This document shows, one piece after another, positions 6,837 to 30,058 of a DNA stretch of 34,794 bases. The notes under the pieces are model-generated. The model saw only the letters and a list, made by a program, of their open reading frames with translations. It did not search any database and was not told the origin of the DNA. The DNA comes from Candidatus Brocadia sp. (GTDB taxonomy: Bacteria > Planctomycetota > Brocadiia > Brocadiales > Brocadiaceae), in NCBI GenBank assembly GCA_021646415.1, contig SOEU01000029.1, forward strand, positions 1 through 34,794, in the 5' to 3' direction. Position 1 is the stretch's first letter, and the number at the start of each line of letters is the position of its first letter. The translations under genes were made by a program, and so were the position numbers.

Positions 6837-7241
6837 ATGAAGATTTACTATAATCAGAAGCTAAAATTCCTCTCAAGAGAACTCAGAAAAAAAAGTACTT
6901 TATCAGAGGTCTTGCTTTGGAATAAATTGAAAGCACGAAAGATAAAAGGATATCAATTCATGCGGCAAAAGCCAATCGGTAAGTATATCGTAGATTTCTA
7001 CTGCAGTAAGTTGAAATTGGTAATTGAAATTGATGGTATCAGTCATAACGACAAATCTGAGAAAGATCGGGCAAGGCAGAAGCAATTAGAGTCGTTGGGG
7101 CTGTCTCTGTTACGGTTTTATGAATGGGATGTAAAAAAAGATATGAATGCTGTAGTGCAGGTAATCGAATCCTGGATTGAAGAATTTGAGAAAAAACACA
7201 ACCCCCTGAATCCCCCTTTGGGTAAGGGGGACTTAAAATGA
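6837..7241 (+). CDS. DUF559 domain protein (restriction-endonuclease-like fold)
   Basis: The 134-residue protein matches the DUF559 family, which has a Vsr/PD-(D/E)xK nuclease-like fold. Visible motifs are ARKIKGYQFMRQKPIGKYIVDFYC, the acidic strand KLVIEIDGISH (likely catalytic Asp/Glu) and LGLSLLRFYEWDVKKD. No biochemical function is established for most members, so a nuclease role is inference. The gene sits alone among glycan genes and lies between inverted copies of one palindromic element. The right copy encodes the last 13-14 residues (HNPLNPPLGKGDLK) and the stop codon, which overlaps the next gene's ATG (ATGA). This suggests the gene arrived as a repeat-bounded cassette. Confidence 0.8.
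   Translation: MKIYYNQKLKFLSRELRKKSTLSEVLLWNKLKARKIKGYQFMRQKPIGKYIVDFYCSKLKLVIEIDGISHNDKSEKDRARQKQLESLGLSLLRFYEWDVKKDMNAVVQVIESWIEEFEKKHNPLNPPLGKGDLK
7197..7237 (+). repeat. GC-rich palindromic repeat, right (inverted) copy, supplies the 3' end of the DUF559 gene
   Basis: TCCCCCTT (7211-7218) pairs with AAGGGGGA (7224-7231) around TGGGT. It is preceded by ACAACCCCCTGAA, the inverted counterpart of the left copy's GTAGGGGGTTGT. It is in-frame with the DUF559 gene and ends a few bases before the next start codon. Confidence 0.8.
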
Positions 7242-16580: not shown

Positions 16581-17598
16581 TCAACAGTACCCCATCTTCC
16601 AGTGATAAAACAACTCTGGGTAAGCTTGTCTTATCGAATTGAGTTTCACCACTGATTTCCGGTAACCAATCTTGTGCTTTTTACTGAGCCACTTGATTAG
16701 TCTCCTGTCTATCATCATCAATGTGTTTCTTAGGCTTCTTATGCTGTATTTACCATAATAAGCTATCCATCCTCGAAGTTTGGCTTTGAGTAGTTTAGCA
16801 ATATCTGATATTTCTACCTGCGTGTTACCCCACAGTTTTACCTCTCGAATCACTTCACGGATTCTCTTTTGGTTGGATCGGCTTATCTCGGCTGCAAATG
16901 CTGTGAAACTCTTGCCATCTCTGTTGCTCTTTCTTGCTCTCGGCTGATAGCTGAATCCAAGAAATTCAAACTTGACCACTTCATGCCCTCCTTTACGTCT
17001 ATAGTCCCTACAGTAAGCAATCCGTGTCTTTTCCTCTTTGATTTGCAGCTTTACTTCTGCCAGCCTCCGTTTTATCGCTTCCAGCACTTTTTCTGCCTCT
17101 GTTTTGCTCGTACAGTGTACCACTACGTCGTCTGCGTATCTCACAAAGCTCGCCTGTGGGTAGTGTTTGGATAGCCACACATCAAGCGTGAAGTGCAAAT
17201 AGAGATTTGCAAGTAAAGGACTAATTACTCCTCCTTGTGGCGTCCCTTTTCCTGCTTTTTGTTGCAGTGTGCCATCTTGCTTTTGCACTGGCATCCCCAG
17301 CCATCTCTCTACATACATCTTCACCCATTTCTCTTCCATGACATGCTCCACTGCTTTTATCATCAGCACATGGTCTATTTCATCAAAGAACTTGCTTATA
17401 TCCATATCTATCACCCAGTCCTGCCTGTAGCAGTTCTGTCTGACTTGTTCTATGGCCTGATGTGCGCTCTTCAATGGCCTATACCCATAAGAATTCTCAT
17501 GGAAAAGTCGGTCTATCCTCTTTTCCATGTAGTCCTTCACTACTTGCTGCGCTATCCTGTCTCGTAGTGTCGGTATCCCTAATTTACGCAAAAGGTTG
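16581..17598 (-). pseudogene. ltrA: Group II intron reverse transcriptase/maturase, 5'-truncated
   Basis: The 336-residue remnant starts at RKLGIPTLRDRIAQQVV, which normally lies about 80-100 residues into LtrA-type maturases, so the RT0/RT1 region is missing. What remains is good: SYGYRPLKSAHQAI, DMDISKFFDEIDH, GTPQGGVISPLLANLYLH and the catalytic FVRYADD box. The maturase-specific domain (LRGWIAYYGKY) is present, and there is no HNH endonuclease domain. The open frame starts only at a TTG (17591). Upstream, homology stops near 17598 against a GGGGTCAAATCTTTA sequence. The intron's 5' half, including domains I-IV, is absent, so it cannot self-splice or move. Loss of the 5' end fits incomplete reverse transcription on insertion, or a later deletion. 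Confidence 0.85.
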
Positions 17599-19860: not shown

Positions 19861-20029
19861 ATATAGAAAGTGTTTTCCTTATCCTCCCGATTAATGAAAA
19901 CAGTTGAAAATATACTTAGTTACCTTGTCACAACAGAATTAAAAGGAGACAAATCACAGAAGAATACGGATGGTACAAATGCACACTCAACAGATAAATG
20001 TTCCAAGGGAAAGCAAAAGGACATACATT

Positions 20030-21859
20030 ATGTTTATTGTGGCGAGGTTTGTCCTTCTCCTCTTTGTTGCGTTTTTATCAACGACAGCGCTTGCTTACGC
20101 CAAAGATAACGAAACTGTTGCAGCGCCACAAGAATATTTTAGCGACTGTAACATAACCGTTGTTTCCACCCTAGCGGGAAATACCATACAACTTGCCAGA
20201 CAGCGGGATGTTTTACTCTTCGAGGGTTTTGATGCATCTGTTAAACCTGAAAGAGGCCCATCAAGGAATGCTTCTCAGAAGATTTCAGACTGGAGATATA
20301 TCCCTAAAGATGGCTGGGGGTTTGAAAATTTCAGAAACGCACTTACTCCTTTTGTTTTAAGGGAAAAGGATGCGCAGAATACCTGCCTGATTATTCGCGG
20401 TAAAGAAGGCGACACCGCCTTTGAGCTTGCTTCCCCAAAAATCCCTGTTGTGCCAGAGAAAGAATACACCCTGAGTTTTCGATGCAAGTTTAATAAACGT
20501 ATGGTGAGCCACTACGGACACAAAGGAAAGTATGAGACCGGTATTATCTGGTTTGACTCAAATCACAAGAAACTGAACGATATGCCCATCACCCTGCTCT
20601 GTGAAGAGGGTGATGAAAAAGACTGGTACAGAAAGGCGATTACCGTGGTTTCACCTGAAAAGGCAGCAATGGCGCTTATTCGCTTCGGTTTTGACCTTCC
20701 GAATCTTGGCCCCGAGGATTTTGTATGCCTCGATGATATTCAATTCGACTCGGCAAGTAACAGGCACGAACCCGAAGGCGAGTTTGTTTCAAGGCCGTTG
20801 TCAATCGAACCAGGCGAATTTTCTCTCACCGCAAATGCAGACATACCAGCAGGAACCTCCATTCGATTCCAGGTAAGGTTTGCCGGGGATAACGATGGTG
20901 TGCCTGGCACCTGGTCATCGTTTGTAAATTACAATCAAACAACCACCCCTCAGTCCCCTCCTTCACAAGGAGGGGATTTTGCCGTGAGCACTCAGCAGAA
21001 CGACAAAAGGGATATGAAATCAAGGCTTTCCAGTTCACTACCTTCACAAGGGAAAGGGGAAGGATTGTTGATTTCCTCCTTTGCGAGGGAAAGAGACAGT
21101 GTTATTAATTACCCCCCTTTCGTTCCCCCCTTCGTAAGGGGGGACACAGGGGGGTGTAAAATAAACTTTCCGGAAAAAGAAGTTTTTGCACAGAAAGCCT
21201 ATAGATGGCTGCAATACCGGGCTATCCTTCATACAACCAAACCCGAAACAACTCCTGCGCTCCATAGTGTGACAATTAATAACTCTGGTCGCGTCGCTAT
21301 TACAGATACTGGATGGACCGGTCACGATACGACACCGCCTGAAATTATTTGGCGAAGCCCGACAAGAACTGAGAATGCAGATATCCCGATCTCGTTCCGC
21401 CTTTGTGACAATCCTGGCGGGCTTGGCGTCAAGAGTGTAGAGGCGTATCTTGATGGAGAGAAAGTGGAATTATTACAGGATAAATCCCATGGGAACGAAT
21501 ATACTCTCAAGACCAATGGCCCACTCAAGCCCATCGACCGCAGCAGAAGTCTTTCAGCATGGCGCACTGAGAATTACCAGGATGCACTAGCGGTGGAACA
21601 TACGCCAGAAGTGATTACGGTGAGGAGCAAGAGTAAGGATGATACTTACGTGGATACTGCCTTTAAATTACCGTCACCACAGATTCCTGTTCGAGAAAAT
21701 TCGAAGTATGTGCTTACCTTTTTTGTGCAGCATACTATGGAACTCACACAATTACAACATTGGGGAGAGCTTTCAAGCGGTATACGCTGGAAGGATTTTA
21801 GGGGGAATGATGTAGGCGCTCCATACAGGATGAGTTTTGGAACCCGTGATATAAACTAG
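20030..21859 (+). CDS. N-terminal part of a broken secreted carbohydrate-binding/glycosidase-like protein
   Basis: I chose ATG 20030 because AAAAGGA lies 8 bases upstream and the frame then begins with a clear signal peptide (MFIVARFVLLLFVAFLSTTALAYA). The frame is also open from 19970, but that start lacks both. The 609-residue part holds a jellyroll-like binding domain (about 65-240), a beta-sandwich (TSIRFQVRFAGDNDG), an Ig-like segment (TTPPEIIWRSPTRTE), and most of a second jellyroll-like domain. It ends at an in-frame TAG (21857-21859). Similarity continues in the same frame, and the parallel position in the first jellyroll is Trp, so TGG probably mutated to TAG. About 75 residues (20939-21165) come from palindromic repeats inserted in frame. 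As read, the product lacks its catalytic domain. Confidence 0.7.
   Translation: MFIVARFVLLLFVAFLSTTALAYAKDNETVAAPQEYFSDCNITVVSTLAGNTIQLARQRDVLLFEGFDASVKPERGPSRNASQKISDWRYIPKDGWGFENFRNALTPFVLREKDAQNTCLIIRGKEGDTAFELASPKIPVVPEKEYTLSFRCKFNKRMVSHYGHKGKYETGIIWFDSNHKKLNDMPITLLCEEGDEKDWYRKAITVVSPEKAAMALIRFGFDLPNLGPEDFVCLDDIQFDSASNRHEPEGEFVSRPLSIEPGEFSLTANADIPAGTSIRFQVRFAGDNDGVPGTWSSFVNYNQTTTPQSPPSQGGDFAVSTQQNDKRDMKSRLSSSLPSQGKGEGLLISSFARERDSVINYPPFVPPFVRGDTGGCKINFPEKEVFAQKAYRWLQYRAILHTTKPETTPALHSVTINNSGRVAITDTGWTGHDTTPPEIIWRSPTRTENADIPISFRLCDNPGGLGVKSVEAYLDGEKVELLQDKSHGNEYTLKTNGPLKPIDRSRSLSAWRTENYQDALAVEHTPEVITVRSKSKDDTYVDTAFKLPSPQIPVRENSKYVLTFFVQHTMELTQLQHWGELSSGIRWKDFRGNDVGAPYRMSFGTRDIN
20939..21165 (+). 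repeat. Palindromic repeat cluster inserted in frame in the glycosidase-like gene
   Basis: Several CCCCTCCTTCACAAGGAGGGG-type hairpins form a block of about 225 bp that keeps the reading frame open. It encodes a low-complexity peptide (TTTPQSPPSQGGDFAVS... and PPFVPPFVRGDTGGCK) between two conserved beta-strand regions. The first 55 bases resemble the second insertion at 22138. The behaviour recalls Rickettsia palindromic elements, which also insert within genes. Confidence 0.8.
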
Positions 21860-22366
21860 CGCCGAAATGTGCATACCGTGAAATCTCCTGCCGGCGCTGC
21901 TTCAGCAGAACTCTGTTTTGGATGGGATTCACCGAATCTGAAAAGCGGGGATTTCTTTTCGATAAAAAATGTCAGCCTTGAAGGTCCGAAACCTGAGTTA
22001 ACGTATGCGCCAAATTTACACAAGATTGAAGTCAAGGCCTGTGACCTTGCCGGAAATAGCATGCAGAAAACATGGTATTTGTTTGTAAAAGAATTTCCGA
22101 TAGAAAACATCATAGGGCCGCACGGTCGCAAACAATTAACCACCCCTCAGTCCCCTCCTTCACAAGGAGGGGACTTCGTCGTGAGCGCTCAGTCGAACGA
22201 TAAAGGGGAGGTAATAAAAGATACCCTACCTCATGAAAGTATGCCACCCACCCTTAATCCCTCCCATCGTTCGACTGAGCGCTCACGACGAAGTCAAGGA
22301 GGGAAAGTTCCTCGCCCTTTGCGGGAGAGGGTCAGGGTGAGGGGTATTTTCGTGCCAATACGATAA
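21860..22366 (+). pseudogene. Middle segment of the broken glycosidase-like gene, beyond the TAG
   Basis: Read in the same frame as the upstream part, this continues as RRNVHTVKSPAGAASAELCFGWDSPNLKSGDFFSIKNVSLEG. It matches, position for position, the end of the first jellyroll in the same protein. A linker strand follows (HKIEVKACDLAGNSMQKTWYLFV), then the gene is interrupted from about 22138 by a second palindromic repeat insertion. That insertion changes the frame. There is no independent start codon with a ribosome-binding site, so this stretch is unlikely to be translated on its own. Confidence 0.75.
22138..22345. repeat. Second palindromic repeat insertion, with 30-bp perfect inverted repeat
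   Basis: It begins with the CCCCTCAGTCCCCTCC..GGAGGGG hairpin. Then come two 30-base arms that are exact reverse complements (22172-22201 and 22266-22295), separated by 64 bases. Arm content includes GAGCGCTCAGTCGAACGA, related to the GTTCGACTGGGCTCACC repeats elsewhere in the window. The insertion shifts the frame of the host gene by one step relative to the 3' part. Confidence 0.85.
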
Positions 22367-23460
22367 GACTGCGTGACGATGGGATGACGCTCATTGATAA
22401 TAAGCCATTTTTCCCTATCGGCATCTATGCCGTACAGAAGAGCAAGGTAAATGATTACAATTTCAATAACGCTTTCAAGGAACTTAAAGAAGCGGGTTTT
22501 AATACTGCCCACACCTATATGAAAGAACGGAATCATGATTTTCGTGAATTTTACTCCACAGCAGCACAGTTTGGAATAAAGGTTATGGTCATGGCATCGA
22601 CCGGACATAACAGTGCTGATATTGATACCATTGTCCGTGATGTAGCATCTGAAGTAAATCAACCGGCGTTGCTCTCGTGGTATCTGGCCGATGACACCGC
22701 AAGCCATATCGGATCAAGCGACCTTAAACGCGTGCATGAGGCAGTGAAGGACATTGATCCGTTTCACCTGACCGGTCAGGCAGATTGGGTTGGCAATGAA
22801 AACAGGTATAAAGGATATGGAAAGGCAACGGATATCTTTTTGCCTGAGCTGTATCCCGTTGGCAAAAAAGGAAGAGGTGGCGTTCCGGAAGTGATACGTG
22901 ATATGAATACTGTAAAGGAGGAGTTAAGAAAAGCAGGACAGAGCAGAGGGGTATGGGCGATTGTTCAGGCGTTTAAAGGATGGGGATGGGAACGCTACCC
23001 GACGAACGAGGAACTGCGCGCCATGACGTATCTGTCCATTATTCACGGCGCTACCGGTATTACCTATTATACCTATGGAGGCTGGGGGAACAACTTTGGC
23101 GCTCCCTATGACAAAGGTGTGTGGAATAATCTGAAAAAGGTTGTGGGAGAACTTGCATCCCTGCACGACGTGCTGGCAGAAAGGAATACAACGGAAATCT
23201 GTGCTTTCCAGATAGGCAGAGGAGCAACGAAAGACGACCTGGTCTATCCGGCAATAAATACCTTGTTCAAGGTTCATCAGGAGAAACAGTATCTGTTTGC
23301 TGTCAATTCTGCAAGGGAAAAGACCGTCGGTCGGTTTCAACCTCCAGGAAAGAGTATTCCGGAAATTACTGTCTTGTTTGAAGGTCGATCATTGCCGGTG
23401 AAAGACGGGGTGTTTGTGGATGATTTTAAGCCGTATGAGGTGCATGTGTATCAATGGTAG
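22351..23460 (+). CDS. C-terminal glycoside-hydrolase-like part of the broken gene
   Basis: The frame resumes at 22351 with RANTIRLRDDGMTLIDNKPFFPIGIYAV; the first ATG is 22384, giving 358 residues. The sequence looks like a TIM-barrel glycosidase: FPIGIYAVQ start, NAFKELKEAGFNTAHTY, IKVMVMAS, LLSWYLADDTA, FLPELYPVG, GVWAIVQAF, and GATGITYYTYGG, ending with a small beta domain. Such barrels follow carbohydrate-binding domains in secreted glycan-active enzymes. The specificity is unknown. No ribosome-binding site or signal peptide precedes the ATG, so this is most likely the stranded catalytic end of the gene that starts at 20030. Confidence 0.7.
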   Translation, partial: RANTIRLRDDGMTLIDNKPFFPIGIYAVQKSKVNDYNFNNAFKELKEAGFNTAHTYMKERNHDFREFYSTAAQFGIKVMVMASTGHNSADIDTIVRDVASEVNQPALLSWYLADDTASHIGSSDLKRVHEAVKDIDPFHLTGQADWVGNENRYKGYGKATDIFLPELYPVGKKGRGGVPEVIRDMNTVKEELRKAGQSRGVWAIVQAFKGWGWERYPTNEELRAMTYLSIIHGATGITYYTYGGWGNNFGAPYDKGVWNNLKKVVGELASLHDVLAERNTTEICAFQIGRGATKDDLVYPAINTLFKVHQEKQYLFAVNSAREKTVGRFQPPGKSIPEITVLFEGRSLPVKDGVFVDDFKPYEVHVYQW

Positions 23461-23615
23461 TTTTTTCAGGCAAAGGGGTATAGAGGCAGAAGACAAATAC
23501 TTTTTGTCAATTGAATTATTTATCAATTGATGGTAATTTAAAGAAAAGGTTACATGCAGAATATAAGAGCATGATTGATAAGAAGTCAAAAGAACAAGAT
23601 ATAGGAGGTTTTAAT

Positions 23616-25474: not shown

Positions 25475-25594
25475 TGGTTCGACTGGGCTCACCACAGGTG
25501 GTTCGACTGGGCTCACCACAGGTGGTTCGACTGGGCTCACCACAGGTGGTTCGACTGGGCTCACCACAGGTGGTTCGACTAGGCTCACTACAGG
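25475..25594 (+). repeat. 24-bp tandem repeat, five copies
   Basis: TGGTTCGACTGGGCTCACCA followed by CAGG is repeated head to tail; the first four copies are identical and the fifth has two changes (TAGG, ACTA). Single related copies occur at about 17843, 18905 and 18950. The 24-base period keeps a minus-strand frame open, but that frame has no support as a gene. Confidence 0.92.
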
Positions 25595-25670
25595 ACTTAG
25601 GGCGTATGCCCCTCCCATTTCAACAGCTTTAACCGTTTATTTCCCCATGCCGTTGTGATACAATTTGTGA
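25595..25670 (+). repeat. Composite repeat block 3 with -10-like hexamer
   Basis: ACTTAGGGCGTATGCCCCTC, CATTTCAACAGCTTTAACCG, TTTATTTCCCCATGCCGTTG and TGATACAATTTGTGACG follow the tandem array. The first 36 bases are the same as in block 1. TACAAT at 25659-25664 lies 122 bp before the start of the next gene. Confidence 0.75.
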
Positions 25671-27229: not shown

Positions 27230-27395
27230 ACCTTGTAAAAATTCTTTTTTTAGCAAGATTTTTTACCTCCCTTTATCCACTCCTTACGAAGGAGAAATTG
27301 GAAGCACTTTAATTCTTTACCTCCCCTTCATCCCCTCCTTGCTAAGGAGGGGAAAGAGGGGGTTAATTTGGTTGCGACGGTGCTGCGTTATGATA
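27230..27395 (+). repeat. Palindromic element, left copy (with internal duplication)
   Basis: It starts TTGTAAAAATTCTTTTTTTAG, contains CTCCTTACGAAGGAG and CCCCTCCTTGCTAAGGAGGGG hairpins, and ends GGTTGCGACGGTGCTGCGTT. The same edges and order occur at 29944-30058, in the same orientation. The element is specific enough to be a mobile repeat family rather than a chance hairpin. Confidence 0.82.
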
Positions 27396-29923: not shown

Positions 29924-29943
29924 ATTACGCTCCTATCGTGTTG

Positions 29944-30058
29944 CTGTGTAAAAACATCTTTTTTAGCAAAATTTTTTACCACCCCTTCACCCCCTCCTTC
30001 CGAAGGAGGGGGTGAAGGGGTGGTTGTTAGGTTGATGCGGCTGTGCTGCGCTATGTAA
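29944..30058 (+). repeat. Palindromic element, right copy, between dabA and dabB
   Basis: It begins TGTGTAAAAACATCTTTTTTA, has the CCCCCTCCTTCCGAAGGAGGGG hairpin within longer ACCCCTTCAC/GTGAAGGGGT arms, and ends GCGGCTGTGCTGCGCTATG. It matches the copy at 27230-27395. The dabA stop codon (TAG on the minus strand, 30051-30053) lies within the conserved right edge. Confidence 0.85.

Follow-up and report, generated by a model that had tools for sequence, protein, structure and literature searches.

In-frame palindromic repeats in genes of Candidatus Brocadia and their likeness to Rickettsia palindromic elements

In the papers we found, Rickettsia and Wolbachia are the main bacteria in which palindromic repeats have been described lying in frame within conserved genes. 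Rickettsia palindromic elements (RPEs; Ogata et al. 2000, via PMC2229807, PMC3767692, PMC10969869) form in-frame inserts in conserved genes, and for Gmk both translation and activity of the product have been demonstrated (PMC2229807). Their sites are recurrent and solvent-exposed (PMC3767692). A 2024 review regards the level reached by RPEs as unusual and similar protein evolution elsewhere as 'conceivable' (PMC10969869). WPE-like in-frame inserts are reported for addA, addB and priA of Wolbachia, where relaxed selection is considered in connection with genome reduction (PMC4224334). A literature search outside subscription papers found no report of such repeats in anammox bacteria or Brocadia.

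How does the repeat of Brocadia compare with these systems? Like RPEs, it is a dispersed palindrome found both between and within genes, unrelated conserved genes apparently survive its in-frame insertion, its orthologous sites are either filled or empty, and it shows recurrent insertion hotspots; RPE sites are exposed or disordered, and for the PriA insert of Brocadia disorder is predicted. Unlike RPEs, which are found in obligate intracellular Rickettsiales, the Brocadia copies occur in free-living anammox Planctomycetota and mostly in one codon phase. The Wolbachia inserts are in a different lineage, while the Brocadia genomes have 3-5 Mb; since priA and addA were targeted in both (PMC4224334), shared tolerant linkers are indicated. 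REP/BIME and MITE-type repeats (ERIC, RU-1/2/3, Correia; PMC2229807, PMC2759123) are likewise short, dispersed, hairpin-forming and non-autonomous, and are also sometimes found with ORFs fused in frame to other ORFs. By this comparison, the view that the Brocadia repeat acts like the Rickettsia and Wolbachia elements appears well supported; the likeness is one of behaviour, and membership of RPE-1 to RPE-10 is not claimed.

The window gene and its two repeat blocks

The window, the whole stretch of 34,794 nt that was analysed, is contig C29 of a 42-contig, 3.81 Mb Candidatus Brocadia genome (G000). It carries a gene for a secreted protein with two repeat blocks, as well as further copies outside this gene (Table 1). 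In G002 and G003 the orthologous gene is one uninterrupted ORF, coding for 1005 and 1054 aa, respectively. The first-pass annotation had described a GC-rich hairpin block lying in frame in this gene, and this was borne out: the ORF 19970-21859 is stop-free across site 1, the orthologues are without the block, and its fold of -93.7 kcal/mol has a z of -4.6, with 0 of 200 shuffles as good. The size of about 75 residues given there has to be lowered, since in the alignment the window gene has 82 residues where the G002 and G003 orthologues have about 20, a net gain of about 62.

Table 1. Repeat copies and related features in the window
Feature	Position	Strand	Details
Related hairpin at gene end	7205..7241	+	encodes last residues of DUF559 ORF 6837-7241; C-terminus ...HNPLNPPLGKGDLK (stop)
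Host gene, secreted protein	19970..23460	+	one ORF of about 1005-1054 aa in G002/G003; broken here by amber codon and frame change
Site 1, in-frame repeat block	20935..21165	+	translates TTTPQSPPSQGGDF...YPPFVPPFVRGDTGGCK; absent from both orthologues
Hairpin unit type 1, CCACCCCTCAGTCCCCTCCTTCACAAGGAGGGG	20943..20975	+	core CCCTCCTTCACAAGGAGGG at 20956; codon phase 2
Lesser hairpins of site 1 (two)	21038-21059, 21072-21092	+	
Hairpin unit type 2, TTACCCCCC...GGGGGGTGTAA	21109..21159	+	core CCCCCTTCGTAAGGGGG at 21126; codon phase 0, peptide PPFVPPFVRGDTGGCK
In-frame amber TAG	21857..21859	+	Trp at same position in both orthologues
Site 2, second repeat block	22137..22350	+	entered in phase 2, left in another frame
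Parts of site 2	type 1 unit 22140-22172; sub-repeats 22173-22201, 22266-22295; further repeat 22315-22344	+	
Intergenic copy	27310..27392	+	core 27333
Copy downstream of dabA	29940..30056	-	core 29992; dabA stop TAG within element end

That reading had missed the amber codon and the frame-shifting second block. Both orthologues read on beyond the stop at 21859. Site 2 opens with a type 1 unit in the same codon phase as at site 1, with the peptide LTTPQSPPSQGGDF, and the C-terminal part of the gene (22384-23460) is in a different frame; at this site the G003 orthologue has another in-frame insert, NHEEHEGHEE...KKFLPGNTI. Because of the amber codon and the frame shift after site 2, the window gene is probably a pseudogene, so that the in-frame state of site 1 proves little alone; the gene was therefore dropped as the prime example, being no proof of frame selection. 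An Rfam search of 19900-23500 gave no match.

Might the repeat segments be missing from the protein, through RNA removal, translational bypass or an assembly artefact? The strong hairpins and the frame break at site 2 would agree with this, but the same inserts are found in independent assemblies, the amber codon of the window gene lies outside the inserts, and segments that were skipped would have no need to be free of stops, to keep the frame and to prefer one phase, as these do. We hold it to be extremely unlikely.

The repeat had also been said to supply the ends of two other genes. For the DUF559 gene this stands, as its C-terminus is coded by a related hairpin; for dabA only the stop codon lies within the element, and the protein is not repeat-coded. 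The window further contains about five tandem copies of TGGTTCGACTGGGCTCACCACAGG (25476-25596) and an ORF for a group II intron-type reverse transcriptase/maturase (16581-17591, minus strand).

A dispersed family and its host genes

The core CCCTCCTT-N3-9-AAGGAGGG has 44 matches in the genome, 43 of them with a 3-nt loop. A related CCCCCTT core has 30 matches, about 10 with the 3-nt loop of the family (CCCCCTT-N3-AAGGGGG), while reversed control patterns gave 0 matches in the same genome scan. This exact-core census was used because nhmmer, run on a systematic sample of 400 kb, recovered two copies only, both intergenic. The unit is a GC-rich hairpin of about 45-50 bp with C/G arms, often grouped in multi-hairpin blocks of 100-230 bp, whereas an RPE is one element of 105-146 bp; as in protein-coding palindromic elements, the repeat is dispersed and has the capacity for long stem-loops. 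The DNA family was detected, with varying copy number, in 48 of 59 genomes of the order, and the assemblies compared are mostly MAGs; common descent of the copies in all 48 is not claimed because similar C/G-arm hairpins could arise independently. Mobilisation by RAYT, as for REP, was considered and set aside with no consistent link: one of 12 Y1 loci, a transposase fragment, has copies about 1 kb away. At the second site of the YfhO-like gene, TA-rich ends are suggested (TATAG...CATA), with no clear target duplication at this one site.

When 51 cores were viewed in context, 14 were crossed in frame by long ORFs with coding signal (in one of them, in the HprK-related gene, the core is near the N-terminus and the upstream coding signal is weak), and one more belongs to the disrupted portion of the window gene. 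With degenerate cores included, the host genes, named via Pfam/NCBIfam, are those of TruD, a PDZ protein, a U32 peptidase, AddA, Cas6, PriA, a TPR membrane protein, a YfhO-like protein, a spermidine-synthase-like protein, an HprK-related kinase, Lnt and the window gene. Thus at least 12 genes have in-frame inserts, and 11 of the 12 listed keep an open ORF, among them unrelated conserved genes; empty orthologous sites were found in relatives at the sites compared. The hosts include enzymes of DNA repair, tRNA modification and lipoproteins. It is in this sense, as elements that work alike, that the likeness to RPEs proposed in the first-pass annotation holds. The linkers concerned differ between species, either in length or in whether an insert is there at all, in Lnt, in TruD and the YfhO-like protein (two sites each), in the spermidine-synthase-like protein and in the TPR protein. 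In free-living planctomycetes with genomes of 3-5 Mb, such natural pairs of empty and filled sites (PriA, TruD, Lnt) make the tolerance of inserts directly testable. The same peptide is also found outside the genus, in TruD (G029), UvrA (G034), a UvrD-family helicase (G048) and others.

Gene depletion and codon phase

Copies are strongly depleted from genes. In this genome 15 of 53 (28%) lie in genes, counting the cores examined in context plus two cores placed in no ORF, against a coding density of 0.80 (p about 7e-16), and in G001 and G005 together the number is 11 of 40 against the same density. Among 19 intergenic copies with same-strand neighbours, a control that takes in part of the intergenic copies, none interrupts a gene that four relatives have in one piece.

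The copies that do lie in genes show a marked preference for one codon phase. Phase 2 is found in 14 of 16 intragenic cores of this genome, in a set that is defined by open ORFs and hence favours in-frame copies, and in 10 of 11 cores of G001 and G005, a sample picked by DNA pattern rather than by peptide and independent of the first. Cases outside the genus were left out of the count because they were retrieved by peptide. Since several sites are shared by descent, the independent insertions are fewer than the copies, and at the level of distinct sites the phase bias is about 2e-4. The preferred phase reads T-P-L-S-P-P-S-Q-G-G-D; on our reading of the sequence, phase 1 appears closed by TAA at unit ends, and phase 0 would yield a basic, aromatic peptide. 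The two signs by which the first-pass annotation had proposed to judge the repeat thus came apart, depletion from ORFs being strong and frame-keeping far above chance.

Does this preference belong to the element itself or to the fate of its insertions? The first-pass annotation had suggested that selection keeps the sequence of the repeat translatable in at least one frame; such a repeat would be a 'gene-friendly' selfish element. In favour of this, intergenic copies are somewhat more open in phase 2 within 30 nt on either side (0.64 against 0.45 in shuffles), stops are hardly possible in hairpins with a pyrimidine arm and a purine arm, and the same peptide recurs across an order. However, the openness of the core follows from base composition, the copies are depleted from genes, and beyond 45 nt on either side intergenic copies are near the shuffled level, with no preference for phase 2. 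Over 60 nt on either side, the stop-free fraction of intergenic copies is 0.18 in phase 2 and 0.18-0.26 across the three phases, barely above the 0.13 of dinucleotide shuffles, whereas for intragenic copies phase 2 reaches 0.60. The bias in phase and frame therefore arises mainly after insertion, and as intergenic copies are not specially translatable, a filter acting on inserted copies is favoured over selection of the element for translatability. The latter we regard as improbable, and the claim is not supported.

What seems very likely to us is that a dispersed palindromic family has spread, that its insertions into genes were mostly purged, and that the survivors are in-frame, one-phase, nearly neutral translated linkers. 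In this scenario, GC-rich palindromic repeats would have spread in Ca. Brocadia and across the order to which it belongs, and most of those entering genes would have been lost. The remaining ones would sit in flexible linkers or loops with the frame kept, almost always in the phase giving a hydrophilic, probably disordered Pro/Ser/Gly-rich peptide (TPLSPPSQGGDEGEVK), and would be translated as near-neutral linkers and retained through speciation. The window gene itself fits this scenario, as a probable pseudogene that carries one of these insertions. A bolder extension, which we consider doubtful, is that across the anammox order translatable palindromes repeatedly entered core enzymes in one fixed phase and continue to supply disordered linkers; Rickettsia-style elements would then have arisen a second time, independently, in free-living bacteria, and the element would be partly shaped by life inside genes.

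A palindromic sub-repeat of G000, GTGAG(N0-2)CTCAGTCG, occurs in versions of 25 and 27 nt. The genic copies identified all have the frame-neutral 27 nt and the intergenic ones are mixed; as a signal of frame this length difference was set aside, the copies being too few. In G005 the truD frame is split into two overlapping ORFs at the repeat site, possibly a frame-breaking insertion, in a near-complete genome.

The PriA insert and tolerance of the host proteins

In species with an empty site, PriA reads ICKK-LTQPKPGVILLHG... without interruption by the repeat. The insert adds about 40-90 residues with TTP-x-SPPSQGG just before the Walker A motif, and it is present in four Brocadia genomes (G000, G003, G006, AMX1) and one lake MAG. 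Its dN/dS is 0.46-0.68 against 0.10-0.15 for the host protein, at similar dS. The insert is under relaxed constraint, about five times weaker than that on its host, and this contrast at similar dS indicates that it is old and was kept in register. In a structure model which matches solved PriA structures, residues 259-322 have a pLDDT of 25-32 within a confident PriA fold, with Walker A close after; the value is partly low through the few homologues that cover the insert. The insert is thus predicted to be disordered.

Are the inserts adaptive, domesticated linkers useful to their host proteins? The retention of the PriA insert in these four genomes and the MAG and its dN/dS below 1 would fit such a role, as would the repeated targeting of one linker by differing repeat families at TruD site 2, in the TPR protein and at site 2 of the window gene. 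On the other hand, the hosts are unrelated enzymes, the inserts vary widely in length and sequence, intact proteins without inserts exist in other Brocadia species, and the constraint on the PriA insert is weak as given above. Domestication is therefore quite improbable in our view, and near-neutral linkers filtered after insertion are preferred.

These linkers also hold in-frame copies of other repeat families, with the peptides PLRERVRVRG, NHEEHEGHEE and CHSERSEESH; they were seen in this genome or its relatives, in AddA, in TruD and in the window gene, there at 22315-22344. For annotation the inserts call for caution, as they can pass for domains or frameshifts. For TruD with two inserts, the score falls short of the cut-off in each of the seven listed TruD equivalog models of NCBIfam, and its automatic naming may fail as a result.
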